A DNA stretch of 64,000 nt from Henricia sp. BOLD:AAB3569 (taxonomy: Eukaryota > Echinodermata > Asteroidea > Spinulosida > Echinasteridae): assembly GCA_037783545.1 (NCBI GenBank), contig JBBELK010000620.1, positions 744,001 to 808,000 of the forward strand, given 5' to 3'. This document shows positions 5,372-49,620 of this stretch, one piece after another (position 1 is the first letter of the stretch; every line of letters starts with the position of its first letter). The notes under the pieces were generated by a model that was not told the DNA's origin, searched no databases, and saw nothing but the letters and a program-made list of their open reading frames with translations. A program made the position numbers and the translations under genes.

Positions 5372-8300
5372 ATGATGTGGTACGCACAAGACTCATTGGG
5401 TTTCACATACCCGCTAGTTCTCTGCGTGGTTCTTGCGTTGACGACTCGAATCCTTCTGAGGGTCCGACGCCAGCCCCCCGGGCCCTGGGGCTTCCCGTGG
5501 GTCGGGATTGTCCCGTATCTGGTTTTTGCCGAATATGTCAGGGGTCTTCAACGCCATGAAGCTCTGGCGAAGCTGGCAGCGCGTTACGGGGCCGTCTTCA
5601 GCATGACCGTGTTTGGGCGCTGTGTGGTCATCCTTTCTGATCCGGAGATTGTGAGGGAAGCTTTCACACGACAAGAATTCAACAACAGACCTGAGATTAA
5701 AGTGGAGCATATTCCGACGGGAACAGGTGAGAACACAACCTAATAACCATCCGATCGACAAGTTGGGATTAAAGGCGTCTTTCCTTGGGTCCGTTTTTCA
5801 TCCGTTTGGCGTGCGTTGCGTTTGCGCTCTGTATCGGTCTATGGAGCGATGCAAGACGGATGAAAGACGCAAGACGGATGAAAACGGAGCAAAGGAAAGG
5901 CGCCTTTACTCGGATTCTTCTGAAGAATGTAGAAATAATGGAGGCATGCAGTCACTAGTAGTAGACCGGTCAAACACACTGAACGGTTCCACTAGACAAC
6001 GCATAAAAACACGACAATGATGGACAATTTGTTGATGATATTTGACAGGGTTCCACAACAATTTGCAACAGTTTATTTTCGGTATCATGAAAAACTAACG
6101 CCTTCTTTCTACAAGAATATTAAATAAAAAACTCTAAATTATCACAAATATCAGTGAAATTGCCCACTTCACGCTCTTCGAGCTCGGCCGACCGGCGAGG
6201 CCCGCGGGTGCCGATGCCCGGTGTTGAAATTGAGAATTTCTCGCTGGAAAATCTTGCCCAATCTTAACTATTTAGGGCGCACTTAAAAGCTTATGACACG
6301 ATCTTTCCATTTCTGCTTGCGCGTTTTAGCTATAGTCGACAGTTTTGGGTAAAAACAAAGCGCGCAACTTTCAACGAAAAATAAGAACGATTGTCTGTAC
6401 TGTCTCCAGGTGAAATTGTGGGAATGAAATCTGCCATACTGCAGTAGAAATCAGGCCGCAAAATCTGGTATTTTGTGCTGCAAAACTCAACTTTTAAGAA
6501 TTGTTTTTAAGTTTTTAAATTTGTTTCTCTGAACCTGTTGTCATATTGTGTACTGTACCTACTGACACAATTTCAGCTAAATAGCATCATCAGAACCTGA
6601 GAGATGACTTTTTTGCATATGTAATTAGTTTGACTTAGTCTCTAGAGCACAAATTATTGAAATTTTGTCTTTTAGCCAAAATTTGGGCCACTGTTTCACA
6701 AGAACTGAAAATTAGTATTATTTGTAACACACTTATATTTTCAATAAAGGCAGCAGACATTCATATATGTAAAAATGACACGTTACATTGCCTCAGATCA
6801 CCAAGAATAAGGCATCTCAACTACACACCTTGAAAAGTAGGCGATTTGGGCTTAAAAGTTGGCCTGTTTGTGAACTTACTGGCTTTTTTAATGCACTGTA
6901 TTTAAATAATGGGGTGTATAACTTGGGAAAGAAACACTGATATGTAAAGTTTGGGTGATTTACTTCCAGGAAAGGAGCAAATAAGATATTTAAAGCCTAT
7001 GAATATAATAGAAAAGTTGGTGTGAAATCAAATTTTTTTTGATTTTTGCCATTTATTTGTTGAGTTGTCTAGGAATTTGTCATTTTTTCAAAACCTTTTT
7101 TGGCCATAACTTGGGAACCCCTGTATATACCGATATTCAAAATTCAAAGTGTTTTGTAATCTACACAACAAAGTCCTTCAGGGGAATTGTAAATTTGATT
7201 CAAAGAAGCGTTTTTAATTTGTTCATTGTCCTGCCTACTAGTAGGATAGTTTAAAAGAAGTCCATCAATTTCTCCAGCCCAAGTCTTTAAATTCTAGCTT
7301 ATACCTGAAAGTTTAAAGTGGCACCACCGAACAACTTTATTTCATAACGTTTTGATTAACCCTTTCAGTGATTTTTAACAGTGCACATTCATTCATTTAA
7401 TGGACCCATTTATTCATGAATGCAAATTGAGTTGTTTGGTTTATCCTGTTTGTTATATTTGTAAAAAAATAAAACCAACAGTCACGGCATCCAACCATTC
7501 TGTGTGCCATGCTCGCATGACAACGTCATGTCGTTTGTACACTGTAAAAAAAAAGTTGGTTTTTTTTACGGTATTTCCCTGGCAGTTTGGACGCCAGTGC
7601 AATACCGTAAATAAACTGGAAACTGTCAATTGACAAGTCCACTGTAAAATCACAGTCTACAATGAGTTGTAAAAAAACGGCAGCGCCCTTGTTAATTAAC
7701 ATCGGTTTCCCTTGTAAGAACACAGTATTTAAAGTTGCACTGCCCGTGTTTGGGCCGTTTTTTTTTTTAAAGTTAAATAGGTATTTATCTAGAATAGAAA
7801 AAGTTATCAGCTTTCATTTGGTACCAAGAACGTAAAAATCCGTCAAGGATTAATGCCAGTCGATTAAAAACAAGAAATGATTAAATGGCTGGCTGGTCAA
7901 TTAATCGACAGGGTTATGACGTTAATGTACATGTGCGCGTACATGTGTACATTGTACACATACTATGTACATATGAGCGTACGCGCACATGTACAACATG
8001 TGAAGCACGTTTCAAGAAAAAGGCTTGTATCTCCAATTCCCGACGTCGGAAATTTAAGTTTTTGATATTTTTCGTTACAGAGACATGTAAGCTTTCTAAA
8101 TTCGTTCGCTTGTGTAAATTAATTTTTTTAATCCTTTCACCCAAACACGGGCAATGCAACTTTAAACTGTAAATTCACCAAATTCCGAGCATATACCAAC
8201 AGTCTGTCCATATTATTTTACGTCGCACATTGGTTACAAGTATGCCTTTCTTGTGTATTAACAGGAACGGGTTAGTGAAACTCTGTGTAAAAACAATTTG

Positions 8301-11300
8301 TACAGTGTGGAATATTCTTATGGAATCAATTGTGTAAAGCAATTCCGCTGTCCTTCGCCACTGAAAGACAGATTAGCCCTTTCAGCCCCAATGGCGACTT
8401 AGCCCGTGCACTGTACCACGCTTGAGCACCAATGGCCACCGCGTTCGTTTGGTGTATGATACAACAGGGGTCGCCATTACGATTTTTTTTGGAAACGACA
8501 CGTGAAAAAACCTGCAACAAAATTGAATCTTCTTGCCTAAATTTCAGCATCATGGCTGATCGCGATGCAGAGATACTTGAATAATTGTTTGCAGACAGTG
8601 ACTCTGACATGGATTCTATGAGTTCATCCGAAGAGTCCGCTGAAACTAGCCACGAATCTGATGAATATTCTCCGTCTAAGTCTTCAGACTCGGATATTAC
8701 ATCGCACAGTTAGTGTGAGTGTAATGGTTGCACACACATTAAATAGGGCTCCCATAGGAACCAATGCTAAATGCCCAATTTTCAAAAATCATTTAAAAAT
8801 ACCCACAACTCTCTCAGCGTCTGGAGACGACAACCAAAATACACATTGATATCTCATATTTTTAATTCTGTTCAATTTTATAGGGGTAATCCGTCACTTT
8901 CATTCCCTAATTTCCACATATGAAACAAAACTACCCCTGCAAGAGTGAAAATTGCCAAACAGACCAGCGCCATTTTGAAAAAAAAATCACATTCGCTACT
9001 GGGGAAAATAGGGCAACTTTCACGAGCTACATTCTCCAAAATGTTTGTACTTGGAAGAAAAAATACCCCACATCACGATGGTGGCCAGTTTCCCCACAAG
9101 ACCCCACTTGTTCAGCTCGAAATTCTCTCTAAGAATTTAAGGGCATACAAAATATTCATGAGCTTGGCGCACAGATCCCTGCCTATTTACTTGGGTGCAC
9201 CTATGTGAATTAATGTATGAACTCGCGGTGACCTTGTGCCAGTATGCCATGCACGTAGCACGTGGGACTGCATGGGAGCACTGTGTGAATAAACAATATG
9301 GGCACTGCAGGCTGCATGCGCATAAACAAATATGGGGCTGATAGGGTTAATGGACAGTTTACAACTCAAATCTGTCTTTTTACGGGAATATGCTTTGAAA
9401 CTTCCACCAATGCCATTAATTTACAGCATTGCCTTTAAATCAATGGCATTATGTTAATCAACAGTTTGAACGGATGTATTTACATGCAAAACCTCTGTAA
9501 AACCAGAAATACTGTCCGACACCGTTATTGTACACGAAGAAAATCTTGTAATTTTACGGGAATTTTTTACAGTGAGGCTTGGCAAAAGTTAGGTGTGAAG
9601 TTCATTGTGAACCATCTCTGTGTGAGTTCGGCTTGGGAAATATAAAACGGCAAACGATCCCAGACGTGCCTGTAAAAATAAGTCAACAAATGATTTTAAA
9701 ACGCTTTTTCAAAGACAAAACTTTCGCGAAGAGTATCTCAACGCTTTGAGATCGTAGACGGACGTTTTAGTGCCAGTATACAAATATTACGGGGTGGGTT
9801 CGGGAAAAACATAGGAATTTGTATTCAACATTTCTCAAACGTTACTGCGAGATTGTGTATTTCAAAGAACACCCATGGCGCTCTAGTTAAACCTTAAAGG
9901 ATTAAAACAACTTTGAAGGTCACGTTCTGTCGTTCAGAAATGTATCGTGTGGTGACGATTTGACAGAACTCAAAACTGATGGACAATGACGCAATTTCTT
10001 CAAGAGATTTTGAAGAATTTGGTCCGCTGGAACTATTCAGACTGGGATTATTTCTTCCATTGTTATAGCTTTTACGAGGTTTGTGAACTTTGGGCAGTAT
10101 TTGTGACGTGAAGGTCCCCTCCCGTGTTATCGCTCCTCGTATCCAACCATGGCCTTGTGCTTACATGTATGCGGACACACTTTGATCTCCTAAGGCCTTT
10201 TCACACTACCCACTTTCGACCCGGGTAACTTTCTACCATGGGTATAGCTGCAAATAACTTGGATTAAATTTAACCCGGAGTTTCGTTTCACACGACAATT
10301 GTTAACCCCGAGAAACACTTATCCGGGTCGTCTCTTACACGGGTCATCAGCGACCCTTTTCCAACTGCACTTCTGCATTCACACATGTATTAACCGGGCA
10401 ACCAAGGGCGTGGTTTGCGACCATCAAGGAACGTATTTCTGACACGATTACTGATTCAACGATCAGCTTCAGTCCGTCAGCAACCAAAACGGATGAAAAG
10501 TGATCATTGGTTGAACTCGTCTTACAAATCGTTACGACAATAAACGAATTCAATTACGAAGTACTGACGACACGTTTCCGATTTATTCGTCGTCAACTTC
10601 GCGTAACAAAATTACAGTTGCTTGTGAAAAATCGATCTACTGATCATGCATTATAACAACATAGCAGTCGACATGAAGACATCGCTGGCGATAAAGCATG
10701 CATGCTTCTTGTCATTGGCTGTTTCGGGACACAGTACCCGAAATAGCCTTTTTTTTTTTTTTAATATTTTTTCTTCTTTTATTGGCTGTTTGGGGACACG
10801 TACCCAAACAGCCTTTGTTTTTGTTCAGATTGTTTTGGCTGTTCCGCGGTATCCGGTCACGACCGGTACAGCCTTTGTTTTCGTTCAGATTCTATTTTTA
10901 TTTTTGGCTGTTCCGATACGGTTGAAAGTGGTGCAGAGTATCTGGATGGGGTCAACAGTGTTAGACTTCGAGTCCAAAACATTGTGGCGATGGACTTTGA
11001 ACTTGCTCACTTCCAGTCCAAACCGGAAGTGGTCCTTAATTTAAAAACGGTAGGAGGTATTGAGATGGGGTCAAGTGTGTGAGTGTCAGAAGCCCTCCGG
11101 CTTTCCAAATATATGTGATGACGTCATCGTACGAAATAGCGACCTCTAGCGACAAGATGATTAATAATTAAATATTCAGAAAGTAGGATTGACAATTGGA
11201 GATGAATTCATAAATATTCAAAAATCAATAAAGAAAATCAACCGTTTGACCTACGATCTTGATTACTTCGCCATATACGATCACTAACAATGGTCTTTAA

Positions 11301-14300
11301 GGTGCGCAGATGGCTTGACTTTTGACTTGGTTTCCTATTGGTCAAACAGATTTTGCCTTGCATTTGAGAGTGGTACAAGATATCTGGATGGGGTAAACGG
11401 TGTTAGGCTTCCACTTTAGGGTGGAGTATAAAAAAACATCAAGTCATCAAACTACGGCGTAATGAGCTTGATCGGAAAATGTCACCTTGCATGGCTTTTT
11501 CAAAGACGTATAAATACATGTATAATTTACTAATAAGGGGTTATTTTCTGAATAACTCATGGTTTGCGTGACTTCACGGTTAAGTGACTTGCACTTTGAA
11601 GTCGACAATTTCAAAAAGCCGTTAATGCAAGGATACATTCACAATACAACTATTCACGCTAGCGGAACGAACTGGATTTGGCTAAGTGCTGCATGTTTCT
11701 TTATTGTCAACCTGTCACGGTGAGTTATCACCGGCGGATGTCGCATTGGGAAAACTTGTCCATTGGAACAACGAGTTGGCGCCTTCGTTCTGGGTGCACC
11801 TCACTAAATAGGCAACAAATTGATGCGTGAGCTCATGCATGAATATTTTGTATGCCCTCAATGTTTTCTATTTTAAAGGGGAGTTGAGAGCTTTTGTGCG
11901 GTTGGAACAGCTTCCATTGCAATCGGTGATCTTGTTGTAACAACACAATGGCACCACACAGTTCACAAGTCAGTACTGCAAGCCAAGCGCGCAGAACCTT
12001 TTAACCCGCTTTGCTCGCTAACCCGGGTCGGAAAGTGTCGTCGTTTCCCACGGCAAACGTTAACCCGGAGAATCGTCTCAAGGCCACCGTTAACCCCGAG
12101 ATTGGTGGGTTAAACTACCTCCCGACCTGGGGCCGATTTCACTAACGTTAAAATTTGCAATCATCGCAAGAACGATCGCTAACTTCAATTCCATTGCACG
12201 CTAAGTTGCGATGGATTTCGAGTTTAGCGATGGATTTGGGCATTAGCGATCATCGCTAAGCGTTAGTGAAATCGGTCCCAGGGCTAGACGTTACCCGGAT
12301 TAAGTTGGATTTTTTGCCATTTAACCCGGGTAATTCGTAACCCCGAGATTTGCCGTGGGAAACGAACCATTAACCTGGGTAATCTCGGAGTTAAATATTT
12401 CTGTTACCAGGGTAATCTCGAGGTTAAAGTGTTGTGGGAAAAGGCCTCTATACATTCAATTATATATTGTGGTATAGTTTAGTTAAGCTCAACTTCTCGC
12501 GGTATAGTTAAAATACCTGTCTTAATCATTTCAACAAATGAAAACCCCAAAAATTACAAAAAGATATAACAAAACCAGCGGCGTCGCCATAAGGGGGGGG
12601 GGGGAGGGGGTGGGGGGGTGGTGACACCCCTATTATTCATTTAGTCGGCAAAATCCTGGTACCGTCGACAACTTCACGGTGCTGTCGGCAACTAGAATGT
12701 GAGAAATATAAGAATTAAAGTGATACAGCAACGCTCATCAAAACGCCACGGCTATATCGGCAATGCTGTTAGGAAAAGAGCAAATAAGATATTTAAAGCC
12801 TATGAATATAATACAAAAGTTTGCGTGAAATCACAATTTGTTTATTTTTTGCCATAAGGGGGGGGGGGGGGGTGGTGGTGACACCCCTATTATTCATTTA
12901 GTCGGCAAAATCCTGGTACCGTCGACAACTTCACGGTGCTGTCGGCAACTAGAATGTGAGAAATATAAGAATTAAAGTGATACAGCAACGCTCATCAAAA
13001 CGCCACGGCTATATCGGCAATGCTATTAGGAAAAGAGCAAATAAGATATTTAAAGCCTATGAATATAATACAAAAGTTTGCGTGAAATCACAATTTGTTT
13101 ATTTTTTGCCATTTATTTGTTGAGTTGTCTAGGAAACGGTCGTTTTTTTCAAAACCTTTTTTGGCCCTAACTTGGGAACCCCTGTACCGATATTCAACAT
13201 TTAAAGTGTTTTGTAATCTATACTCGGCAAGGTCCTTTAGGGGAATTGTAAATTAGATTCAAATAAGCACTGTTAATTTGTTTATTGTCCTGCCTACTAT
13301 TACGGCGCTGGTAATACAATACATTATGTATGTCTGCATGCACGTGTTGTCCCGCGAGGGCGCTCACCTACTCACCAGCTCCTCAACCCCCCCCCCCCCC
13401 CCCCCCCCCACTCCCCCACAAATTGTAAAATGGTCTAGCGACACCGCTGAACAAAACCCAACCTGTATACATGTATACTAAAAAAATGTACATATTTTAT
13501 GATGGATTATTGTATGCTTTTATTCCTCAATACATAGGCCTTATGTACAAAAAAACATTGAAGGGTGTCTTAAACTTATGCAAATCAATGCCTATCATCC
13601 ACAGGTGTTGCCTTGGCGTGCGGTGAACGATGGAAGCAACAAAGGAAATTCACAATTCGAGTCCTGGAGAAGCGCGTTTACCAGGACAAAATTACCAGGG
13701 AAGTTGCGAACCTCATGGAAGCTTTGGCCAATACGGCAGGCAAACCCTTCAATCCTAAATACCACCTTAGGATCTGCGTATCAAACAACATCACCGACCT
13801 CCTGTTCTCTACGAAGCACAACTACAACGACCCTGATTATAAGAAGTACCTAGACATGATCTCAGAAATTACGGATCTCATGGGGTCTGCGGGAGCGGCT
13901 CACAGTATCCCCCTGATCTGCCGTCTTCCTATTCCCTCAAGAATCCGCCTCTCCAAGCTTCTGGTGTCTGAGTTTAATGACATACGGGACATCGTCAAGA
14001 CCCACCGGGACAGCCTGAAACGCGGCAGCCCCCGGGATTACGTCGATGAGTACTTGGATGAGATACTCGGCCAGAAAGAGAAAGGATCAGCCTCTGAGAT
14101 CAACGACCAAAATCTTCCAGAGACTCTGGTACAACTCTTTTCCGCTGGAAGTGAGAATACCTCCACCACACTACGATGGGCGATTCTCTACATGATCGGA
14201 AACCCGGAAGTTCAGACTCGAGTACAAGACGAGTTAGACCGCGTAGTTGGCCGTAATCGGCTCCCAGAGTTCTCCGACGAGCCTTCTCTGATCTACACCC

Positions 14301-15184
14301 GAGCCACTCTTCTGGAGGTTCACCGGCTCGCCAGCGTGACACCTTTTGGCGTTGCTCACGCCTCATCCTCTCATGATGTCACCTTCCGCGGGTGGACCAT
14401 TCCTGCCAACTCAGTCATCTTCCCAAATGTCTGGGCTATTCACCGGGACCCTAAGATCTGGAAGGAGCCGGACGTCTTCAACCCAGAAAGGTTCATCAAA
14501 GAGGACCAGATTGTCAAGGAACATGTCCTTATTCCATTCGGTGCAGGTGAGTCGAACACTTAAACCCAATATAATTTTACCAAGGCCTAACTTAATTATA
14601 CTACAACAAAATGTGCTATAAAAGGAAATTAACGTCATTGTCCTGTGAAAGTTTCATGCTTTATTCTTCCAGTGTCTTTTGAAAACCGAATTATACCGAA
14701 TAGGCCTACACATTCAATACAACCCTTTGGACACCATACTCATCGGAGTACTTATGCCAAAACATTCGCGAAGATGATGCCATTTTCAGTCGTGGTCCCT
14801 GACTCTGTTTATGAAATACAAACTGCAGATTGGGATGGTGCCACTCTATATATGCGTTTTCTAACTATACTGTTCTCCAGTCTGGTATCATCCAACCATC
14901 ACCGTACATTTGTATAAAACTGATTCTTGGGACACGATTAAAAATGGCTCCCATGTGAATGAGGTTTACATTATTTTTTAGTATTTATTTTTCCAATTTT
15001 TGCAGGTAACCGGGCCTGTCCGGGCCGCAATCTCGCCAGAGTGGAAATCTTCATTATCTTCACTCATCTAATGCATCGCTTTTCCTTCCGGAAGGTCAGC
15101 GGGTCACCAATCTCCTTCCGGGGTCACGGCAGCTTTGCCCGCGTACCGGGGGATTACTTGGTGCAAGTATCTGAGAGGACATAA
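5372..15184 (+). CDS. Cytochrome P450, CYP2 clan (complete, 3 exons)
   Basis: Exons 5372-5726, 13605-14546 and 15006-15184 give 491 residues, the usual length of a microsomal P450. Both introns are phase 1 with GT-AG ends. The order is: N-terminal membrane anchor (about 10-30), Pro-rich hinge PPGPWGFPWVG, C-helix W128xxxR132, I-helix FSAGSENTSTT (297-307), ExxR at E356-R359, FNPERF, and heme loop FGAGNRACPG with thiolate Cys437. These make it an ER-membrane heme-thiolate monooxygenase that takes electrons from P450 reductase; the substrate is unknown. Unusually, the I-helix residue that is normally the oxygen-activating Thr is Asn303. Intron 1 is about 7.9 kb and filled with repeats. A possible poly(A) signal at 15310-15315 lies inside a TTAA element. 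The convergent P450 at 17075-20944 has the same exon plan. Clan assignment is firm; the subfamily cannot be told from sequence alone. Confidence 0.93.
5773..5905. mobile_element. Short TTAA-type palindromic element
   Basis: The ends AGGCGTCTTTCC and GGAAAGGCGCCT pair. TTAA precedes the left end and TTAC follows the right end. The interior has CATCCGTTTGGCGTGCG-like repeats that recur at 49625-49985. It lies in intron 1 of the plus-strand P450. Confidence 0.6.
6960..7255. repeat. Interspersed repeat, copy shared with 13035-13300
   Basis: The motifs GAGCAAATAAGATATTTAAA, CTTGGGAACCCCTGTA and TTGTCCTGCCTACTA occur in the same order at 6975-7245 and 13033-13300 in direct orientation, both within intron 1 of the plus-strand P450. 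The family is unknown. Confidence 0.7.
7540..9574. mobile_element. Possible composite element with CACTGTAAAA ends
   Basis: CACTGTAAAAAA at 7540 and TTTTTTACAGTG ending at 9574 form inverted ends about 2 kb apart. ACGG near both ends strengthens the pairing. The interior holds a nested TTAA element at 7733-8161 and no recognisable transposase. The ends could also belong to two separate elements. Confidence 0.4.
7733..8161. mobile_element. TTAA-flanked non-autonomous element (429 bp)
   Basis: TTAA at 7729-7732 and 8162-8165 flanks AGTTGCACTGCCCGTGTTTG and its near-exact complement at the right end. A central palindrome of alternating GTACATGTG motifs lies at 7926-7995. It is non-coding. Confidence 0.75.
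10717..10925. repeat. Tandem hairpin-forming repeat
   Basis: Three successive stem-loops begin GGCTGTT and end ACAGCC or ATAGCC, at about 10717-10748, 10784-10813 and 10837-10873. A fourth begins near 10906. T-rich spacers, two of them holding TTTGTTTTYGTTCAGATT, separate them. The stems differ while the ends are kept. Confidence 0.65.
12127..12283. mobile_element. Small inverted-repeat element (about 157 bp)
   Basis: CTGGGGCCGATTTCACTAAC and its complement at the right end bracket an interior rich in GCGATCATCGC-like motifs. It is nested in the larger element at 10193-12447. Confidence 0.65.
12583..13107 (+). repeat. Tandem duplication of about 265 bp with G-runs
   Basis: The block from GCCATAAGGGGGGG through GACACCCCTATTATTCA to TTTATTTTTTGCCAT occurs twice (about 12583-12850 and 12851-13107), with only a few differences outside the G-run. 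The second copy continues into the repeat shared with 6960-7255. Confidence 0.8.
13387..13410. repeat. Poly-C tract
   Basis: A C-run of more than 20 bases in intron 1 of the plus-strand P450, about 195 bp before the exon at 13605. Confidence 0.85.
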
Positions 15185-15271
15185 ACCCCCGACCATCATG
15201 TAAAACGCAAGAACAATATCAGGTTCATTGAAGGATTGAGGAGTTTCAAAGGGTCTCTGTGCTTTCCTTAA

Positions 15272-15806
15272 AAGGCCCTGTAGATGATCTGTTTTTGAGC
15301 GATTCTGCGAATAAAACCATTATAAATCAAAAGAAACACATCAACAAACTCATCCGAAGAAATTTCAGCTTTGTCAAATGTACCACGTTTAAAAAAACAA
15401 TGAAAATCCATATGCATTTTTCTGGTCTTGGCGGGGTGTTTCAAATATTCGTTCTCAGTTGATCGGGTACTATGTGGCTTGCGTCATGCACCCTGTGGCG
15501 CACATACTGTGTGTGCGCGCAATCCAAAAATGCATCGCGTTGGAACACGCACACGCAGTACATAGGGCGCCCGTGCATTTTGGACCGCGTAGATGCGAAC
15601 CAAAAATAAGTAAATCGTTTGCAAACGATCTACATTATGTGTAAATAATTTCATCTTTACGGATTATTTTCTGGTAAAATTATATCATTTTGAGCGAAAA
15701 CCTTTCATTGGATAGTTGCTATTAATTCAATCTTTACTTTCAGAACTTTTCCCCTGTAAACTCGTCGATTACTTTTTGGGGTCATTGTAAATGATCCACT
15801 GGGCCT
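15272..15806. mobile_element. TTAA-flanked non-autonomous element (about 535 bp)
   Basis: TTAA at 15268-15271 and 15807-15810. The ends are AGGCCCTGTAGATGATC and, on the opposite strand, AGGCCCAGTGGATCATT. It starts about 90 bp after the P450 stop codon and contains AATAAA at 15310, so it may supply the 3' end of that mRNA. Confidence 0.7.
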
Positions 15807-16378
15807 TTAAAGGAAGGGACAACAGGGTTGCCTAACTTTGTACGCCTCATGTAAGTCGCCATCTTTTGCACATTCGGCGCATTTTTCCCCCATAGGTTAG
15901 GCTAACGAAATATATGCAATGGTGAATATACTTCAACAGTTATAGCAATTAAACATATTATTAATCATGTCGTCTTCTTTTACATCTGCACTTTATTCCA
16001 TACACAATTCATAGATTAACTACCTTGGCATATATACCATAACCCCTCATAATATGACATAGATTTTCACACTTCCAAATTGTATTTTCGAATAATTATA
16101 TTCATTCCATTTAATTCCATAATTCTTTACTCTTTGTAGACAATATTATAAATTCTTATAAGCCTATATATATATATCTTGTAACATCTTGTTTACTTTG
16201 AATTCATCGCGAACATAAACGTTTCATTTTTTTTTAAGTTTTAAAGAAACTATAGCTGCTAATAAAGCAATTGTTTTATTAATTCGTTTCAATTTTTAGT
16301 AACGTGACCATTAACTCATCACGAAAGGTTGTCAAGTCATATTTCAGCTGACTATTAAAGTTAGAACACATCTTTGAG

Positions 16379-16535
16379 CAAGTTCGGGCGGGCGATTACA
16401 GTTAACGAATAACCTAACTCCTGGGCTTGGTTCCCCTAGACTAGTCAGACTATATATCTAGTCAAACCACGCAGCGTTCGGGTGATAGATCGACTATGGT
16501 TAGTCTAGTTAACTAAAGTCGCCCGCCCGAACTTG
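16379..16535. mobile_element. Short inverted-repeat element (157 bp)
   Basis: CAAGTTCGGGCGGGCGA pairs with its exact complement at 16519-16535. The interior contains inverted CTAGACTAG/CTAGTC motifs. It abuts, and seems to have replaced, the left end of the next element. Confidence 0.7.
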
Positions 16536-16537
16536 CC

Positions 16538-16983
16538 GACTGGTAATCTCGAAAATCAGAAATGTTCACAGATTTACGCCTAACTTACACAATATAAACA
16601 TGATGACGGTAGTAAACTTCCCCTGAAATGGTTTATCTAAAGTGCTATAGTTTTTGAGAAATTAGTAAAACAATTAATTTTCGTCTCATGAGACGAAAGT
16701 TCACTTCGCCCCAAAACCATTTCGCCCTGCACCACTTCACCCTTCGTCCGAATGCTACTTCGCCCCAAAACACTTCGTGCACAGGCCGTGGTTCAGGGCG
16801 AAGTGGTTCAGGCGAAATAGTTTTGGGGCGAAGTGACCGTAAATACTTTTTTGACTTTTCTCAAAAGTTAGACAAAGTACGGAGCTGATTTTTGCTCAGG
16901 TTGGTTTTAACCATTCATATTATCTTCAAACACACAGGGAGATAAAACCGTTTGTAACGGTTTACCAATCATGTGTTCTGCCT
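16538..16983. mobile_element. TTAA element, copy related to 21730-22244
   Basis: It shares, in inverted orientation, the sequence around TCGTCTCATGAGACGAAA, the repeated TTCGCCCCAAAACC motifs and the end TTACCAATCATG...CCT-TTAA with the element at 21730-22244. The left end is missing beside the element at 16379-16535. Confidence 0.65.
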
Positions 16984-17074
16984 TTAAGCATATTTTTTTG
17001 TACCACATTGTATTAACATGTTATACCGCATTATATCTCGTTTTTAAACATGAAATTATCCACAGTGTGAGGCT

Positions 17075-20000
17075 CTAAGATCGTTCGATGGCCTGCAGTA
17101 GGTATTGGGCCGGGACTCGAGCGAAACTCCCATGACCTTTGAATTCCAGTGGCGGCGAGTTGTCGGCCTTACGGAACGTGAATCGATGAAGGAGGTGTGT
17201 AAAAAGAAGGTAGATCTCCATCCGTGCAAGATGGCGTCCGATGCAAATCCGGTTTCCTGCAAGACAAATATATTTTAAATCAAGTTAGAAGAGCTAAAAT
17301 TTCGTCGCCTTCCATCCATGATGTAACCATGGTTCTAATCTCATCCGGGCCGCCATTATGTTTTTGTTTTAAAGACATAGGCAAGGAATTTCATGCCTTC
17401 CGATTGGTGCATTCATTGCATTGAAATTGATATTAAATATATATATTTTTCCTAACACCGTGAAGGAGTTATTTTTTAAATTACAGCAAAGCAAGAGTTA
17501 TAAGTGGTCTAGTGGTACTGGTAAGGTAGTTTGTGAACACCCTTTTCATACCTATTATTTATGTCAATCACCAACAGCGGAATGACCACCACTTACAGGG
17601 ATACATTAACAACATACATATTTAAAATGCATGTACTACAACACCCCCATTTATGCACCCAAATGCCTCTTAAATATAAAACCGTTGTATACTCTTTAAA
17701 AAACAATGAATTTAATTGACTGAAGTTGGAAGATGATGAACAAAATTATGTGGTGGTACTGAGGAATTTACAGACCTCTCTTCGAAAAGACTTTACTGAC
17801 GTTGCCCCAAACACATCACACATCCCATGAAGCCGGTTGTAAGTGGATGAAATTCTCGAGACAAAGCCTTGTCTGGTAACCTCAACACGCGCGGCTCCAT
17901 GGGATGTGTAAGGTGTGGTTGGCAGCGGACCTAGTTCGGCGACTTGGCACATGCAGGCTGAAAGGATTGGCGTCTGTGACATTAAATACATTATGAACAT
18001 GCTTATACAAAAATACACAATCACTGATAGTTCTTTTGTCAAGGAGGGTCTGAAGTCGAAACATGTCACAAAGCTCTAAATATGAGGGAGAATTGAATGC
18101 AGTGGTATGATTATGTACATGTAGGGTCCTATACATGAAAAACAAATACCGTCTCTGAACCCGTTCTATCCTATCAGACTGAGACTTAGAGATACAGTTA
18201 AATACAACAGTGCAGTATAAATGAGGTCTAATTAATGTACAATACAAGGTGCGCAAAACATGTTCATTCTTACAGGATCTAAGATTACGCCATACTACAC
18301 CAGCCATGCGATTTGCTTTCTTAATTAAATGGCCAACATACAGTGGTTTGTTGTCATTTTGCCTCGAAATTAGAATCACACCCAACAATTTCCTCATAGT
18401 TGTGTCCTGCAGTGGTTTGAGATGTCCATTATTATTATTTAATTTTGGACACAGTCAAGGGTCGTGAACAAGACCTTAAGGTCCGTATAAAATCACTCCC
18501 CGGATAAAAAGGATAAACGATTAAAAAGAAATCTCGGGATTAAAAAAAAGATGGCATAAGGTATAAAACGTGAATAAGAGTATTAAAACAAGCAAACTTA
18601 ATAAAAAGGTATTAATAAAAAGGTACAAAAAAAAAAACAACAACACCGAGATTTAGTAGACGCAATTAAAACGAATATGAATAAAAGCTACGTGGTAAAA
18701 TGAGTTGGACAATTATTGAAAAATAATACAACACCGTTTTTGAAGCCAAAATGTTCTCCCACGTGCAAACTCAACGACAGCTTTTCTCGTCGCCGTTTTA
18801 AAAGAAATTTGGGTGTGATTCTAGATCTAATTTCGAGGCAAAATGACAACAAACCACTGTATGATACGGGATACCCGTAGGGACAGAATAATTCTGTCTT
18901 ATAGTAGTAAGGCTAAATTAGCGAATGGCTATACAGAAGGTTTTGTCGAGTTCAATGCTGGTTCTACTTCATGTAATTATCCTTTTCATCAATTGGGGGA
19001 GACTCTGAAATATTTCTCAACTGATTGCGATGATTTTTTCGGCCTTGATTGGTCAGACGATGATTGTAAGCCTGGATCCTACAAGTTTCGGCGATGTTTT
19101 CACATTAATGGCAAAGGGAAATCCACATTTGGAGCACCAAAGCACTTACCCGCGCTGAAGGAGACGATGTTCTCTTCTCCCGTTATCGATCCATCTTTAC
19201 TAAAGAACCGCTCTGGGTTGAAGCTGGTGGGATCTTTCCAGACCTTGGGATCGTAGTGAATTGCCCATGCGTTGGCGAAGACGGTGGTTCGGGCTGGGAT
19301 GGTATAGCCGTAGAGATTGAAATCATCCGTGGACACGTGTGCAGCTCCTAGTGGCGCCACTGTGGCGGCTCTTTGAAGCTCCAAAATGGCGGCTTGGGTA
19401 TAGGGTAAGGCTTCTTCATCGGAGAGTTGAGGCATCCGTTCACGCCCAACAACCCGGTCAAGTTCCTCTTGGATTCGAGTTTGTACCTCTGGGTAGGCGA
19501 TCATGTAGAGCAGGCCCCAGCGGAGCGTGGTGGCGACGTTCTCCGTACCCGCCGAGAAGATGTGGATGAGCGTCTGGGGGAGATTCTGGTCGCTGATGTG
19601 GGATTCTTCCCCTTCTCTTTTCTTAGAAAGGGCTTCGCTAAGATAGGCATCTGTGAAGTCCCTGGGATTGTCCGGGTCAAGGTTCTGACGATGCGTCTTG
19701 ATTATACTCACGACTCGCCTCAAGTGGCCCAATGTCATCTTGGCCAACCGTTCCATGGAAGCCAGGGGGAGGTATTTGAGCAAAGGGACGCTGAGAATGG
19801 CCCCGGATGTTCCCATCAGATGGGTAACCTCGGCTAAGTCGTCTAAGAAGCCTTTGAAATCACTATCGTTGTACTCGTGGCGGATGCTGTACAACAAAAA
19901 CGAGATGATATTGGAGACACAGACCATCATGTAGTATTTAGGGTCGAAGGGCTTGGCTTTCTGTTTGGCCATCTCGTCCAAGACCGCCTTGACCTCTTGT

Positions 20001-20944
20001 GATATCTTCTGTTCGTGCTCGGGTCGTCCGGCTCCCAATTTCTCCAAGGTACGGATCGTGAAGGTGCGTTGCTCCTTCCAGCAATCACCTGATGCGAACG
20101 CAATACCTGTATTGACCACAAACAACGTCATCCAATAATTGTTCTGCTGTAATAATTCAGGGAGAATACGTAGTTATTTTGATGTAAGAGTGTTGGTTTC
20201 CAGATACAGGGAAATGCACTTTCATTGCCAAGTTTGGCGGAAAGAGTTGAGTAAATGGGTTCAGACCTTGTGTACAAAACATATGAGATGGCTGTATCGT
20301 GTTTAAAGGATTTTTCCATTGTTTTGGTTTTATATCAAATCTGCACTTGCTGATAGTGATACCAAAAGGCAGAGGCTCGTCAATGCGCGCGTGAGGCCAA
20401 AATCGTGCCACGAAATACGCAGCTATATAGCAAAGGCATGGAGCTGCGTAATTCGTGACACTAATTTGGCCTCACGCGCGCATTGACGAGCCTCTGCCTT
20501 TAATAGGTAGGCCTAATTTAAGAAAAATATCAATGATCAACTTCTCAATTCTTACGTTGAATTCCTACCTTTCCCGATGGACATTTTCCCTATCTTCATT
20601 CTTGGACGATCGTTCATCTCGCGTCGTTGGAACGCGTCCTTAACGGCTTCAGCCGTGTTCAAGGCGATCACGGTACGACCGAACGCCGAAAGATTAAACA
20701 CCCTGCCGTACTGGGCGGCCATGGTGGCCATGATTTCATGTCGGTTTATTCCGTACCACCACTCCGTCAGGAGCAGATAAGGAACCGCGCCAAAGTACGG
20801 CAGACCCCGGGGCCCTGGGGGTAGGTTCCCGGGGCCGCCACGGTGCCCACGTAGAACATAGATGATGCAAAGCGACACTAGCAGAAGCAGCAACGCTTTA
20901 CCGCTGGTTGCGAACTCATGGACGTAACTCAGTGCCCATTCCAT
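17075..20944 (-). CDS. Cytochrome P450, CYP2 clan (complete, 3 exons)
   Basis: Exons on the minus strand are 20944-20569, 20106-19150 and 17256-17075, giving 504 residues with two phase-1 GT-AG introns at the same protein positions as in the plus-strand P450. Seen in order: an N-terminal anchor rich in Leu/Ile (about 16-33), hinge PPGPRGLPYFG, C-helix W135xxxR139, I-helix FSAGTENVATT (309-319), ExxR at E368-R371, FNPERF, and heme loop FSAGNRICIG with Cys449. The last exon (59 residues) is too short to stand out as an ORF and was found by following the splice phase. It should be an ER heme-thiolate monooxygenase; the substrate is unknown. As in its neighbour, the usual I-helix Thr is Asn (N315). 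Intron 2 (17257-19149) holds a LINE fragment. The two genes converge with stops 1.9 kb apart, so the pair arose by inverted duplication or a later inversion. Confidence 0.93.
17750..18425 (-). mobile_element. LINE (non-LTR retrotransposon) reverse-transcriptase fragment
   Basis: The minus-strand frame at 18397-17882 reads as the C-terminal end of a CR1/Jockey-type reverse transcriptase: LGVIL, then IKKANRMAGVVWRN, then LYCTLIRPHL, then DRIERVQRR. The order and spacing are characteristic. An overlapping frame (18069-17746) indicates frame disruption. The endonuclease and most of the polymerase domain are absent. It is a 5'-truncated, dead copy within intron 2 of the minus-strand P450. Confidence 0.8.
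18812..18862 (+). repeat. Inverted partial duplicate of the LINE fragment
   Basis: The stretch GGGTGTGATTCTA...TTTCGAGGCAAAATGACAAC matches, in opposite orientation, 18342-18390 of the LINE fragment, except for six extra bases (TAGATC). It suggests an inversion during insertion or a later foldback. Confidence 0.75.
20366..20499. mobile_element. TTAA-type hairpin element, family shared with 51526-51665
   Basis: AGGCAGAGGCTCGTCAATGC pairs with its complement at the right end, and TTAA follows at 20500-20503. The interior has CACGAAATACGCAGCT. The same layout recurs at 51526-51665 and partly near 50690-50755. It lies in intron 1 of the minus-strand P450. Confidence 0.7.
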
Positions 20945-21729
20945 TTTGGCCGAGTTTGTTTCCAGATTTGCTTTTCAGCAAAAGGACCAACCAACTTATA
21001 TATCCTAGTGCTCTCGTTGTGTCTTAATGGCACTTTATCGCAAAAAAGGGTTGTATGTACCCTGGGGTTAAGGTTGTACCCTTTGGTCTTTGTACATTTA
21101 GCTATACACTGCACTATGAACAGGGGCGGATCCAGGAATTTTTCCAGGAGGCGGTTTTGCCACCAGGGAGGTGTTTTTACGTCAGCTTGTTTTGGACAGG
21201 CGGACACCAAAAAAAATGCATTACATTATATTTTATGGTGTCGGAGCAGGGAGGGGTTTTGACCTCGGCAGTGGTCAGCACTCGGCAGTGGCCGAAACCT
21301 TAAACAGGGTCGAAATGGACACGTGGGAATTTCTATGCGCGCAACGGCGAGTTCAACGGTACCACTTCGGACACGATAGGACATTGTGTTCTCGAGTTAC
21401 GTCCGAAAATGTGTGCAGGTGAGTGATCATCGTAACGCTATGGGATTTCGTACTTGGACTGGCGATCTCCATAGGGTTTGTACACGAAGGTAACGCTATG
21501 GGAAATATGTGTACAACTTGATTACCTTCTCACGCTCCTTTAAGGGGGTTCGGACACTACCGTATTTGGGTGCGGCCACAAGTTATACATTTCAAAAATG
21601 CCCACAGGTGTCCATTTCGACCGTGTTTAAGATTTCGGCCACTGCTGACCACTGGTCACTACCTCAGAAAAATTGCGGTACCTTGGGCATTCCGAAAATG
21701 TCCACTATTTCCCCGTACGACCGAGTTAA

Positions 21730-22244
21730 AGATAGTATACATGATTGGTAAACTGTTACAAATAGTTTTATCCCCCTGTGTAATTGAAGATATGCATGAT
21801 TAAAACCAACCTGAGCAAAAACCAGCTCCGTACTTCGTCTAACTTTTGAGAAAACAGTAAAAAAAAGGTTTGCAGTCATTTCGCCCCAAAACACTTCGCC
21901 CTGAACCATTTCGCCCTGAACCACGGCCTGTGCACGAAGTGGTTTTGGGGCGAAGTGGCATTTGGGCGATGTAGTGTTTGGACGAAGTAATTTGGGGCGA
22001 AATGGCACTCGGGCGAAGTGGATTGGGGCGAAATGACACTTGGGCGAAATGGTTTTGGGCGAAATGAATTTTCGTCTCATGAGACGAAAACTAATTGTTT
22101 TACTCATTTCTCAAAGACTATAGCACTTCAGACAAAACCATTTCAGAGGAAGTTTTCTACGGTCATCGTGTTTATATTGTGCAAGTTAGGCGTAAATCTG
22201 TGAACATTTCTGATTTTCGAGATTACCAATGATGTATACTGCCT
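21730..22244. mobile_element. TTAA-flanked non-autonomous element (515 bp)
   Basis: TTAA at 21726-21729 and 22245-22248 flanks ends AGATAGTATACATGATTGG and, on the opposite strand, AGGCAGTATACATCATTGG. The interior is built from repeats of TTCGCCC and its complement GGGCGAA, each followed by a short variable segment, plus the palindrome TCGTCTCATGAGACGA. Confidence 0.8.
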
Positions 22245-41600: not shown

Positions 41601-43819
41601 CTCTGCGGGTAGAGCATCTGCCCGGTGTGTCAGAGGCCTTATAGGTCAGCTGGTAGAGTATCTGCCCGGTGTGTCAGAGGTCTTGGAGAAAACCTGAGGG
41701 AGTATACCACTGTGCCTTATAGCTCAGCTGGTAGAGCATCTGCCCGGTGTGTCAGAGGTCTTGGAGAAAACCTGAGGGAGTATACCACTGTGCCTTATAG
41801 CTCAGCTGGTGGAGCATCTGCCCGGTGTGTCAGAGGTCTTGGGGGAAAACCTGAGGGAGTATACCACTGTGCCTTATAGCTCAGCTGGTAGAGCGTCTGC
41901 CCGGTGTGTCAGAGGTCTTGGGGAAACCTGAGGGAGTATACCACTGTGCCTTATAGCTCAGCTGGTAGAGCATCTGCCTGGTGTGTCAGAGGTCTTGGGG
42001 AAAATCTGAGGGTGTATACATGTACTACTGTGCCTTATAGCTCAGCTGGTAGAGTATCTGCCCGGTGTGTCAGAGGCCTTATAGGTCAGCTGGTCGAGTA
42101 TCTGCCCGGTGTGTCAGAGGTCTTGGGGAAAATCTGAGGGAGTATACCACTTTGCCTTATAGCTCTGCGGGTAGAGCATCTGCCCGGTGTGTCAGAGGCC
42201 TTATAGGTCAGCTGGTAGAGTATCTGCCCGGTGTGTCAGAGGTCTTGGGGAAAATCTGAGGGAGTATACCACTTTGCCTTATAGCTCAGCTGGTAGAGCA
42301 TCTGCCGGGTGTGTCAGAGGTCTTGGAGAAAACCTGAGGGAGTATACCACTGTGCCTTATAGCTCAGCTGGTAGAGCATCTGCCCGGTGTGTCAGAGGTC
42401 TTGGAGAAAACCTGAGGGAGTATACCACTGTGCCTTATAGCTCAGCTGGTAGAGCATCTGCCCGGTGTGTCAGAGGTCTTGGGGAAAACCTGAGGGAGTA
42501 TACCACTGTGCCTTATAGCTCAGCTGGTGGAGCGTCTGCCCGTTGTGTCAGAGGTCTTAGGGAAAACCTGAGGGAGTATACCACTGTGCCTTATAGCTCA
42601 GCTGGTAGAGCATCTGCCCGGTGTGTCAGAGGTCTTGGGGAAAACCTGAGGGAGTATACCACTGTGCCTTATAGCTCAGCTGGTAGAGCATCTGCCTGGT
42701 GTGTAAAAGGTCTTAAGGAAAATATGAGGGAGTATACCACTGTGCCTTATAGCTCAGCTGGTAGAGCGTCTGTCTGGTGAGTTAGAGGTCTTGGGGAAAA
42801 TCTGAGGGAGTATACCACTGTGCCTTATAGCTCAGCTGGTAGAGTATCTGCCCGGTGTGTCAGAGGTCTTGGGGAAAATCTGAGGGAGTATACCACTTTG
42901 CCTTATAGCTCAGCTGGTAGAGCATCTGCCTGGTGTGTCAGAGGTCTTGGGGAAAACCTGACGGAGTATACCACTGTGCCTTATACGGTAGCTCAGCTGG
43001 TAGAGCATCTGCCTGGTGTGTCATAGGTCTTGGGGGAAACCTGAGGGAGTATATTACTGTGCCTTATAGCTCAGCAGCTGGTGGAGTGTCTGTCTGGTGA
43101 GTCAGAGGTCTTGGGGAAAATCTGAGGGAGTATACCACTGTGCCTTATGGCTCAGCTGGTAGAGCATCTGCCTGGTGTGGCAGAGGTCTTGGTGAAAATC
43201 TGAGGATGTATACCACTGTGCCTTATAGCTCAGATGGTAGAGCTTCTGCCCAGTGAGTCACAGGTGTCAGGTTGGAATCCCGATAAAGCCCTTACGACTT
43301 TTCTCTCATCCCAAGTGTGGATGCCACTGTAACTATTCGCCACGACACAGATTACACTACGAGAGGCATGTCAAACAGACACAAGGCGCGTCTAGTTTGC
43401 TTATTACTAAAATGGTGCCTTTACATACTTCACTTTATTGAATTGATTTCGCACGGGTGGGCTATCTTGCACTTTTGCTGTTATATCATCTTTGAGGAAG
43501 CCCTACCCATGCATGCCTATAAGCGGAAGCTAGACAAGTTTTAATACAGTGGAAAGTCACCATAAATGGGCATCGTATCTGAACCATACAAGTGTTTGTT
43601 TTGGTGGCGTTTGACGCGAACAAATGATTGGGAGCCATGAGCGATGTTCACTGTAGCTGAATGTTCTTTTTGGTGTTCACTATAGCGAATTTCCACTGTA
43701 ATAAAATTGGAATGATGGCCAAAAACTCACCTCTCCTGTGTTTTCAGTATCCATGGCAACACGTCCATTTTTGTAGTGTGTAATATGAAGCTCCACAGTC
43801 TGTGGGCTCCATCTCCAAT
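38606..43819 (-). CDS. Candidate exons of an unrecognised minus-strand gene
   Basis: Three intervals join in frame with canonical splice sites: 43819-43731 (WRWSPQTVELHITHYKNGRV, continuing to NTGE), 39607-39521 (ILEATCESLVVYSTIHEVLN, continuing to TNAE) and 38713 to a TGA at 38608-38606 (DQFMKLPCVAAHAWPHLDYW, ending HLSS). Lengths are 29, 29 and 35 residues. The first exon begins two bases into a codon, so at least one upstream exon is missing. The third interval may be an alternative terminal exon, because skipping it joins 39521 to the exon at 36394 in phase. Residue composition looks like a globular protein. I cannot assign a family. Intron 1 contains the tRNA-like array, and a TTAA element lies in the next intron. 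Confidence 0.4.
38796..39251. mobile_element. TTAA-flanked element packed with GCAACTG motifs (456 bp)
   Basis: TTAA at 38792-38795 and 39252-39255. The ends AGCCTAGCGTACATCCACAT and (opposite strand) AGCCTAGCGTCCATCGACAT are inverted repeats. The interior holds more than 20 copies of CAACTG/CAGTTG-type hexamers in both orientations. Confidence 0.8.
40140..40600. repeat. Four tandem units of about 117 bp
   Basis: Each unit carries GGGGCATTCTGGGTAGCATC, ACCATGGCCATGATGTGACT and ACTGGAACTCAGTTTCAG. Units start near 40142, 40258, 40376 and 40491. Minus-strand ORFs here (FVFWKSHHGHGFIM repeats) are products of the repetition. Confidence 0.85.
41062..43285 (+). repeat. Tandem array of about 30 tRNA-like units
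   Basis: The 78-bp unit reads GCCTTATAGCTCAGCTGGTA, then GAGCATCTGCCCGGTGTGTC, then AGAGGTCTTGGGGAAAAC and a TGAGGGAGTATACCACT linker. Some units are cut to about 45 bp. The 5' half is a good Pol III A-box (TAGCTCAGCTGGTAGAG). The B-box is lost in all units except the last (near 43220-43285), which has GGTTGGAATCCC. Ordinary units therefore cannot fold as tRNA. A 562-bp block is duplicated (about 41229-41790 and 41791-42352). The long plus-strand ORFs (SSAGRASARCVRGL repeats) are artefacts of the array. Confidence 0.85.
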
Positions 43820-46700: not shown

Positions 46701-47770
46701 ATAGTATGACGAACATCTTTAAAGAAAATATTCACAAATACAAAATAAATTGTGCTCATCTTTAAAGAATTGAGAAGTTTATTATGGCTTCAGAACTCGT
46801 GTACAAACAGACTGGAAAATTTCTAAGTGTTTCCTCACAAAATCTTAAACTATTCTCACCCAAAATATTGGTTTTTCCCATCAAATCTGCACAGGTTAAC
46901 CCTTTTAACGATGCTTAATAAGTCAACAGGGTCAGCTTCTCAACTCTTACCGATAGGTATATAGTATCAGTACAAGGTGCATAACATTACCTAACTATAG
47001 GTAGCGAGTTCAGTGAAAAACGTAAAATTGACGATTGTATCTGGAAGCGTGGGGAAAATGGCCCAAAACTTTGCGATATTTAGAATAGTTCTAGTTGCTC
47101 AAATTCGATTTTAAAATAATTTTTGAAGAGATGGAGGATCCCTTTTTCAAGTGATGTCTCAAATTGTACGAAATGCCGAGTTTAACACTGTAAAATTTAC
47201 CTTCCAATTTGACATACTCGGCAAATTATTTTTGTGGGTTGCCGAAGGGCGCGGCCATCTTGCTTGATGACGTTGCAGACAGACGTCATCAAAAGGCCTC
47301 TGTGACCTTTCTCTTTTGACTTATGACCTTTGTTCCGTTTTCATCGTGAAGATTATGAAACACGCTCTCGATTGATACCATGTTTGTTGTATTTTGGTGG
47401 AGGGGACACCGTCGTCTAGTCTGTTTATTTTGCACTAAAAACAGGTAATTTTCATGTTCAATTTGTAAAGAAAATGATGGATTTTAAGTACTAAAGGAAT
47501 TTGAGACACCATCTGAAACCATTATAAATGAAAAGAATGGATATTTTTAGTTCAGAATGACATAAAAAATGACAGTTTAGCGCTAGCGAAAAATGGCGAC
47601 ACATAAATTTTCAACGCCATGTAACTTAGTCCGAGACCTACTTCAAAACGTAGCGTATCACTAGCAGGAGCTCATGGGGCCGGTGTGTATAAATTGCGGG
47701 CCTCCTATACCTGGCGGCGCCGGCGGGGATGGGTGATGGGCGAGGTGGGTAGGCATGACATGTCATGTAT
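46700..47770. other. No recognised features
   Basis: No ORF with splice support, repeat boundary or RNA gene was seen. Some GC-rich sequence lies just before the minisatellite. Confidence 0.5.
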
Positions 47771-47775
47771 AAGGG

Positions 47776-48246
47776 TTGATGCCAGGGCGGGGCTGATGCC
47801 ATAGGGTGGGGCTGATGCCATAGGGTGGGGCTGATGCCATAGGGTGGGGCTGATGCCACAGGGTGGGGCTGATGCCACAGGGTGGGGCCGATGCCACAGG
47901 GTGGGGCCGATGCCACAGGGTGGGGCCGATGCCATAGGGTGGGGCCGATGCCACAGGGTGGGGCCGATGCCACAGGGTGGGGCCGATGCCACAGGTTGGG
48001 GCCGATGCCACAGGTTGGGGCCGATGCCACAGGTTGGGGCCGATGCCACAGGGTGGGGCTGATGCCACAGGGTGGGGCTGATGCCACAGGGTGGGGCTGA
48101 TGCCACAGGGTGGGGCTGATGCCACAGGGTGGGGCTGATGCCACAGGGTGGGGCTGATGCCACAGGGTGGGGCTGATGCCACAGGGTGGGGCTGATGCCA
48201 CAGGGTGGGGCTGATGCCATAGGGTGGGGCTGATGCCATAGGGTGA
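47776..48246. repeat. 19-bp minisatellite, about 25 copies
   Basis: The unit is CACAGGGTGGGGCTGATGC. A central block (about 47884-48055) has GGCCGATG instead of GGCTGATG, and both edges use CATAGGG. Because 19 is not a multiple of three, the minus strand is open in all three frames with the same 19-residue period (PHPVASAPPCGISPTLWHQ), so the 187-242 residue ORFs are artefacts. Confidence 0.92.
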
Positions 48247-48249
48247 GGC

Positions 48250-49620
48250 TGGGTGGGGTTGATGCTTGGGGCCGATTGGCTGGATTGAATAGTAGGGCTG
48301 GTGTGTGGGGCTGGTGGGTAGGGCTCATGGGCAGGGCTGATGGGAGGGGCTGACGGGCAGGGCTCATAGGCGGGGCTGGTAGTACAATTCTGGTTTTTTT
48401 TAAATGCCATGTAGCAACCCAACTATCCATCATTGCAGCACCGTCCAGTCAGTGTGTCGAAAAAGACGGTCAAACCTCAATTTTTAAACAAACCATATCT
48501 TTTCTATATTTAAAGGTATGGATTTGATTCCAACATCAACGACTAGAGTTTTAAAAGGGCTTTTTAATGATACTAAACATGTTAGCTTTCATAAAAGGAC
48601 GAAATAGTAACTTGTGATAATATTAGGAGAGCGATGTCAAATCAAAATTTACAGACAGGAAGTAGGAACGTGACAAAAAAATTTAAATTTTAAATATTGG
48701 AATTATTTTTGTGCCAAAATGTGCAGTCTTGAGTCAATAATAAGACCACGTAAAAATAATTTGACAACTTTGCCTAAAACAAAAGATATGGCCAGTTGAA
48801 CCATGAAAATTGACGTCGATGTGCGTTTGCATGTGCTACTTTGAAAAGCCGTAACTTCCCTCATACTGGTCCGAATGTCATCAAATTTTATCCACAGTTA
48901 GTAGATTAATCAAATTTTATAACTGTATTAGTTTAATTAAATAAAATTTGTTTTTCTAATTATATAAAAAAACTCCAAATTTTTGTTATTTTTGACGCCG
49001 CCGATCTTGATGGTTTGAAACTTTAATAAAAATATCACGTCAGTAAATGTTAATTTTTGGAACAAAGATTTGGTTAATCCTGAAAGAAAAAAGAAAGTTT
49101 GTTCCAGTAAAAAAAACAACTTGTAATTTGCTTTAAAAAAGATGTGCAGCAAGTCAGAAACCCCCTTGATGGAATAGGCTAAACCATTTTTATTATCCCA
49201 ACCGGCGATTGCCGGAGAGGCGATACATATTCATATACAACAGCAGGCTTTAAGCAACGTACACGTGTTGGGCATAAAGTGGCCTTACACATACTGTACC
49301 CATTGCCATAAAGTTCTATAGGCGTAGGCCAGCGGCGTCGCCAGACCTTTGAAAGTGAGGGACAACCTAATTTGGGTGCTTACAAGACTTATGATTTCTT
49401 GTCTTTTCTTTTTAGTTCGGTGGTGGGTTTACATTAATTCTATCAAACAAATTTTGCAAACTTTTTGGTTGAGTTTACTAACGCTCATTCACACAATCTT
49501 TTTAGGCGATTGTTGTGCGTGCATTTTTGTGCGTGTCACTTCACGGAAACGCGCCACGAATATATTTTGGATGGTGAATTTAGGTGGTTGCGATTGTTTA
49601 ATTTTCTGTGTGTCGGTTTA
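48250..49620. other. No recognised gene; AT-rich
   Basis: The first 130 bp continue diverged GGGCTGGT/GGGCTCAT motifs from the minisatellite. The rest is AT-rich without supported ORFs. GCGGCGTCGCCA near 49332 also begins the repeat at 12580. Confidence 0.5.

Follow-up and report, generated by a model that had tools for sequence, protein, structure and literature searches.

The window analysed here, a stretch of 64,000 nucleotides of Henricia sp. DNA, carries two neighbouring P450 genes, A and B, both intact and each made of three exons (Table 1). They lie tail to tail, gene A on the forward strand and encoding 491 amino acids, gene B on the reverse strand and encoding 504, so the term "convergent" used in a preliminary description of this DNA holds as a statement of orientation. 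All four introns have GT..AG borders and both reading frames are uninterrupted. The PF00067 profile matched the protein of gene A with 334.4 bits over residues 35-483 of 491, and that of gene B with 341.1 bits over residues 42-498 of 504 (cut-off 22.8). With this match, the heme-Cys loop, ExxR and PERF, A and B are members of the cytochrome P450 superfamily.

Table 1. Features of the two P450 genes and of the flanking inverted repeat in the window
Feature	Position	Strand	Remarks
Gene A exon 1	5372..5726	+	Start codon, hydrophobic N-terminus, hinge PPGPWGFP; GT donor
Gene A exon 2	13605..14546	+	C-helix to start of heme loop; PF00067 core; AG/GT splice sites
Gene A I-helix AGSEN, residues 299-303	14144..14158	+	N303 codon AAT at 14156-14158
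Gene A exon 3	15006..15184	+	Remaining heme loop FGAGNRACPG, stop codon
Gene B exon 1	20569..20944	-	Start codon, hydrophobic N-terminus, hinge PPGPRGLP
Gene B exon 2	19150..20106	-	PF00067 core
Gene B I-helix AGTEN, residues 311-315	19538..19552	-	N315 codon AAC at 19540-19538
Gene B exon 3	17075..17256	-	Remaining heme loop FSAGNRICIG, stop codon
Inverted repeat, left arm	16541..16987		Pairs I1-I5, 81-95% complementary
Inverted repeat, right arm	21726..22228		Pairs I1-I5, 81-95% complementary

Several repeats were observed in and around the genes. The inverted pair of a repeat of about 450 nt encloses the entire gene B and may be the mark of an inversion that set the two genes tail to tail. 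Intron 1 of gene B holds a 60-nt inverted repeat (20365-20501), 93% complementary with a 17-nt loop, and intron 2 an open reading frame on the reverse strand (17882-18454) that resembles, by eye, the end of a non-LTR retrotransposon reverse transcriptase. Intron 1 of gene A contains, at 12601-13112, a 255-nt unit in two tandem copies (98% identical) and, at 6968-7101, a piece related to it. Finally, the repetitive open reading frames at 42175-42780 and 47638-48448 look like minisatellite arrays in frame.

Clan placement and the I-helix residue

The 44 PDB sequences listed for gene B at 1e-60 belong without exception to CYP2, CYP1 or CYP17. For exon 2 of gene A, the same holds for the best 43 of the 57 listed at 1e-20, the weaker ones including CYP21 and plant P450s. 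With CYP1, CYP2 and CYP17 as their closest relatives, both proteins are, as judged from sequence, members of the CYP2 clan. Neither set of listed PDB sequences (57 for A, 44 for B) holds a CYP7 or CYP8 enzyme, and on this ground the CYP7-clan membership that the I-helix residue described below might suggest was rejected. When a model of exon 2 of gene A was compared with the PDB by fold, the best 50 of 998 matches were all CYP2 enzymes, with CYP2A6, 2A13 and 2D6 at the top. This model covers exon 2 alone, lacks the heme and has a mean pLDDT of 71.7, with an average of about 60 for model residues 181-190 around the residue of interest, and is thus uninformative on side-chain geometry.

The hinge PPGPxGxP, WxxxR, ExxR, NPERF and FxxGxRxCxG are all intact in A and B; the earlier statement that everything else needed for a working enzyme is present was confirmed at the level of these motifs and no further. 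The I-helix motif [AG]Gx[DE]T[TS] is matched by neither protein, as both have Asn at the T position, immediately C-terminal to the I-helix Glu. The preliminary description had reported this replacement in both genes, and the codons AAT (N303) and AAC (N315) were verified. The alignments place the Asn at the position of the conserved CYP2 threonine: over the I-helix stretch, A aligns without gaps with CYP2D6 and CYP2A13, as does B with CYP2B35 (5e58), and the paralogues align to both proteins at the same column. The residue that follows is Thr304 in A and Val in B. CYP2B, 2D6, 2A and 2C enzymes, which provide the best sequence matches and the fold match for the exon-2 model, share with A and B the I-helix frame, its acid, ExxR, PERF and the heme loop; A and B differ in having Asn where the CYP2-clan animal enzymes of the four alignments shown (three for A, one for B) have Thr, as do 30 contexts of their own genome. 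The motif [AG]Gx[DE]T[TS] is usual in the CYP2 clan and is no condition of membership.

Distribution and origin of the asparagine within the genome

We surveyed the I-helix contexts of 106 fetched loci from the 740.7-Mb genome. These represent part of the places listed among the best 92 of 445, 122 of 186 and 114 of 183 candidates; they partly overlap, and some are the same place twice or both haplotype copies. The residue was readable in 105 of the 106 loci (the exception being L106), giving 58 distinct contexts with 48 Thr, 4 Ser, 3 Gly and 3 Asn, where a context is a distinct string and not a gene (those of L102 and L103 differ in length only). Among loci matching gene A at a phmmer E-value below 1e-20, 33 distinct contexts were found, 30 with Thr and three with Asn, namely A, B and a frameshifted copy. 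This third copy, at locus L076, differs from L077 by one base of length within the motif, and its upstream frame reads aca, a Thr codon; its Asn is a frameshift artefact, so that only A and B carry Asn among the surveyed contexts. Judged from these contexts, the Asn of A and B is not ordinary local variation. The Gly contexts come from P450-like exons at L101, L102 and L103 (contigs C156, C386 and C451), where the site falls close to the end of a short match and the reading is uncertain. Elsewhere in the assembly, contig C955 contains COX1 three times at a spacing of 16,221 bases, which is the size of contig C2104, and therefore appears to be a head-to-tail concatemer of the mitochondrial genome. 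Translated with table 9, the COX1 of the assembly agrees with an echinoderm source: AAA codons fall at conserved Asn sites (QIYNV, DRNVNT), and taking AGA/AGG as Ser and TGA as Trp yields an uninterrupted protein. As flatworms use table 9 too, this counts as support for an echinoderm and not as proof.

A and B are identical at 246 of 486 aligned positions over their full length (51%). They are mutual best matches in the genome among the matches listed, with 51% identity over exon 2; identity in the other large-exon matches listed does not exceed 43% to A or 39% to B, and some short matches score higher (for example, 53% over 135 residues to A). In a tree of 25 exon-2 domains, A and B group at 100/100 and the distribution of Asn takes one change of state; only two rows were labelled, and shuffling the labels gave an equally low count 15 times in 500. 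In this tree five of the 22 inner branches are open and 14 starred, and some long branches come together. The pair itself is firm, its point of attachment uncertain. Since A and B are sisters, a single ancestral change accounts for both residues; two independent changes from Thr to Asn were considered and rejected, as the tree requires one only. Between A and B, dN is 0.42, and dS was not computable, which we take as saturation. These values point to an old pair, and inheritance from the common ancestor of A and B is the best reading of the shared Asn, with a single origin among the compared genes of this genome.

The preliminary description had offered selection or an ancestor already carrying Asn as explanations of the shared change. 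The ancestor is borne out by the single group and the single change. Selection for the Asn itself is only weakly backed: its retention through different codons at a dN of 0.42 would fit constraint and is weak evidence of such selection, because about half of all residues are common to A and B anyway. In addition, we scanned for other shared changes by comparing A and B with 18 CYP2-type paralogues, five distant rows being left out. At 14 exon-2 positions, the residue common to A and B occurs in none of the 18, of which more than 60% agree on a single residue. Most striking among these positions are S187 (Gly in 18/18), N303 (Thr in 18/18) and A369 (Pro in 14 and Met in 4 of 18).

Asparagine at the same place in other P450s

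Among PDB sequences, Asn was found at the I-helix place in CYP7A1 (WASQANTIP), CYP8B1 (WASQGNTGP) and CYP8A1 (WATQGNMGP). The Asn of CYP7A1 falls in the N303 column of the MAFFT alignment, in which a gap of one column follows some residues later, and that of CYP8B1 was placed through its gap-free alignment with CYP7A1 across the I-helix stretch. By their deposited names, CYP7A1 is a monooxygenase, CYP8B1 a hydroxylase and CYP8A1 prostacyclin synthase, an isomerase. These CYP7-clan enzymes share the Asn with A and B but lack the I-helix acid, which A and B keep as Glu; CYP7A1 and CYP8B1 are thus imperfect models for our pair. Two other comparisons were made by description: with P450cin (CYP176A1), a soluble enzyme from bacteria that is served by a redox partner of its own, and with the plant CYP79 family, which carries out oxime chemistry.

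What follows draws on the portions of the cited papers that were available. P450cin has Asn242 instead of the conserved Thr and is a competent enzyme, about 80% coupled, in which Asn242 is reported to hydrogen-bond to or direct the substrate and not to act as a functional substitute for Thr (PMC8398027, PMC9355150). Judging from the title of a D241N study cited there, P450cin also keeps the acid and so combines it with Asn as A and B do. In soybean CYP79 members, Asn is fifth and Pro sixth in the oxygen-binding motif (PMC9048032); this Asn-Pro pair is matched neither by A (NT) nor by B (NV). P450eryF (CYP107A1) is another natural loss of the conserved Thr, with Ala in its place instead of Asn (PMC10741444).

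Engineered changes at this place have differing effects. According to a title in the reference list of PMC13161928, T252N of P450cam is efficient. In BM3, T268N lowered turnover and coupling and left the enzyme strongly uncoupled (PMC11900375), so that Asn is not neutral in every scaffold. T310A of human aromatase retained 36% and 27.5% of activity and produced more peroxide, and the acid of the acid/Thr pair was needed (PMC9366932, in the part available); the Thr is therefore not absolutely required. By analogy with these enzymes, Asn at the I-helix place is not by itself a sign of exotic chemistry. The hint of unusual chemistry given in the preliminary description is not supported as a default, since CYP7A1, CYP8B1 and P450cin carry Asn yet are hydroxylases; the isomerase CYP8A1 and the CYP79 enzymes carry it too.

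Within the CYP2 clan, the case looks rare among the sequences compared, even as Asn recurs across P450s. The published motif table for three cnidarians has Asn in 0 of 83 motifs (PMC8110760), and that for the annelid Capitella in 2 of 28 counted rows (PMC4229089), CYP39B1 and the gapped CYP3067A1, grouped by the authors with CYP39 and with CYP7/CYP306, respectively. These counts, made on the portions of the tables available, leave out the annelid row CYP372B1 and two cnidarian CYP20A1 rows without the motif, and trim two cnidarian motifs of seven letters to six. As the cnidarian authors set aside genes lacking the motif as fragments, their table is biased towards the usual motif, and few rows of the Capitella table, itself a subset, are obviously of the CYP2 clan; both are soft controls. 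Given these tables and the limited survey, the rarity rests mainly on this one genome. For 41 human P450 transcripts, the accessible text of PMC12534787 reports no asparagine near the cofactor. This underlines the rarity of Asn, yet it is difficult to reconcile with CYP7A1 and CYP8B1 unless the distance limit or the set of that survey leaves out their Asn. No CYP2-clan enzyme with this Asn and a known activity was found among the PDB matches listed or in the literature searched, which also yielded no echinoderm study of the residue; nothing on the residue after the I-helix acid was found in PMC5036807, and PMC7827799 and PMC6153880 treat other changes.

Proposed role of the asparagine

We consider it probable that A and B are paralogous, functional microsomal CYP2-clan monooxygenases in which the Asn positions a substrate or a water molecule. 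A one-base change in an ancestral gene (codon ACY to AAY) would have replaced Thr by Asn, and duplication would then have produced A and B. Both enzymes would still draw electrons from P450 reductase and activate O2, with protons delivered through the retained Glu beside the Asn and ordered water. The Asn amide would hydrogen-bond the substrate or a near-iron water and fix its orientation, much as Asn242 does in P450cin. Such enzymes would be expected to accept a narrower range of substrates with regioselectivity and not to perform new chemistry, and some uncoupling to hydrogen peroxide might occur. The need for the acid in aromatase, as given in the accessible text of PMC9366932, was counted in favour of the monooxygenase reading, as A and B keep theirs. 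Counted against it were the loss of turnover and coupling in BM3 T268N, the isomerase activity of CYP8A1 and the missing acid of CYP7A1 and CYP8B1.

It is unlikely that A and B are slightly damaged or relaxed copies in which the change was tolerated after duplication, with poor coupling or vestigial activity. The strong uncoupling of BM3 T268N (PMC11900375, seen in part) would agree with this, as would the Thr found in all 30 other readable contexts of the nearer relatives and the further conserved sites altered in the pair. Against it, the frames, splice sites and motifs of both genes have stayed intact despite a long divergence (dN 0.42), and the Asn has been kept in both by different codons.

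We regard as quite unlikely the view that A and B act outside the normal O2/NADPH cycle, as isomerase-, dehydratase- or peroxygenase-type enzymes on an endoperoxide, hydroperoxide or aldoxime, so that the proton-relay Thr is dispensable. CYP8A1 has Asn at the same place, echinoderms make oxylipins, and S187 and A369 are further unusual residues of the pair. Yet A and B keep the Glu, and the acid is absent in CYP7A1, CYP8B1 and CYP8A1; their sequence and predicted fold are plainly those of CYP2 enzymes; and four of the five P450s with Asn named here (CYP7A1, CYP8B1, CYP8A1, P450cin and CYP79) are oxygenases. A related idea, that the Asn marks an echinoderm-specific CYP2-clan family with a dedicated reaction (rearrangement of oxylipin or sterol peroxides, or oxime formation) to which S187 and A369 are co-adapted, likewise has a slim chance of being correct. 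Least probable is that Thr304, directly after the Asn of A, assumes the alcohol role through a small register shift and leaves A functionally ordinary. In CYP199A4 and BM3, a second Thr there reportedly helps to uphold the hydrogen-bond network (PMC9366932, in the part available), and Thr304 could be a partial stand-in for the alcohol, but B has Val at the matching place and the shared Asn cannot be explained in this way.

Several far-apart P450 lineages, CYP7/8/39, CYP79, P450cin and here a CYP2-clan pair, thus have Asn where the proton-relay Thr usually stands, probably through independent origins. A CYP2-clan Asn with the acid kept, alongside many Thr paralogues in the same genome, would offer a clean test on a microsomal scaffold of whether this residue tunes substrate orientation, coupling or reaction type. 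The Asn of A and B is a variant with working precedents elsewhere, and its interest would be greater if it did mark a conserved echinoderm family with a reaction of its own.
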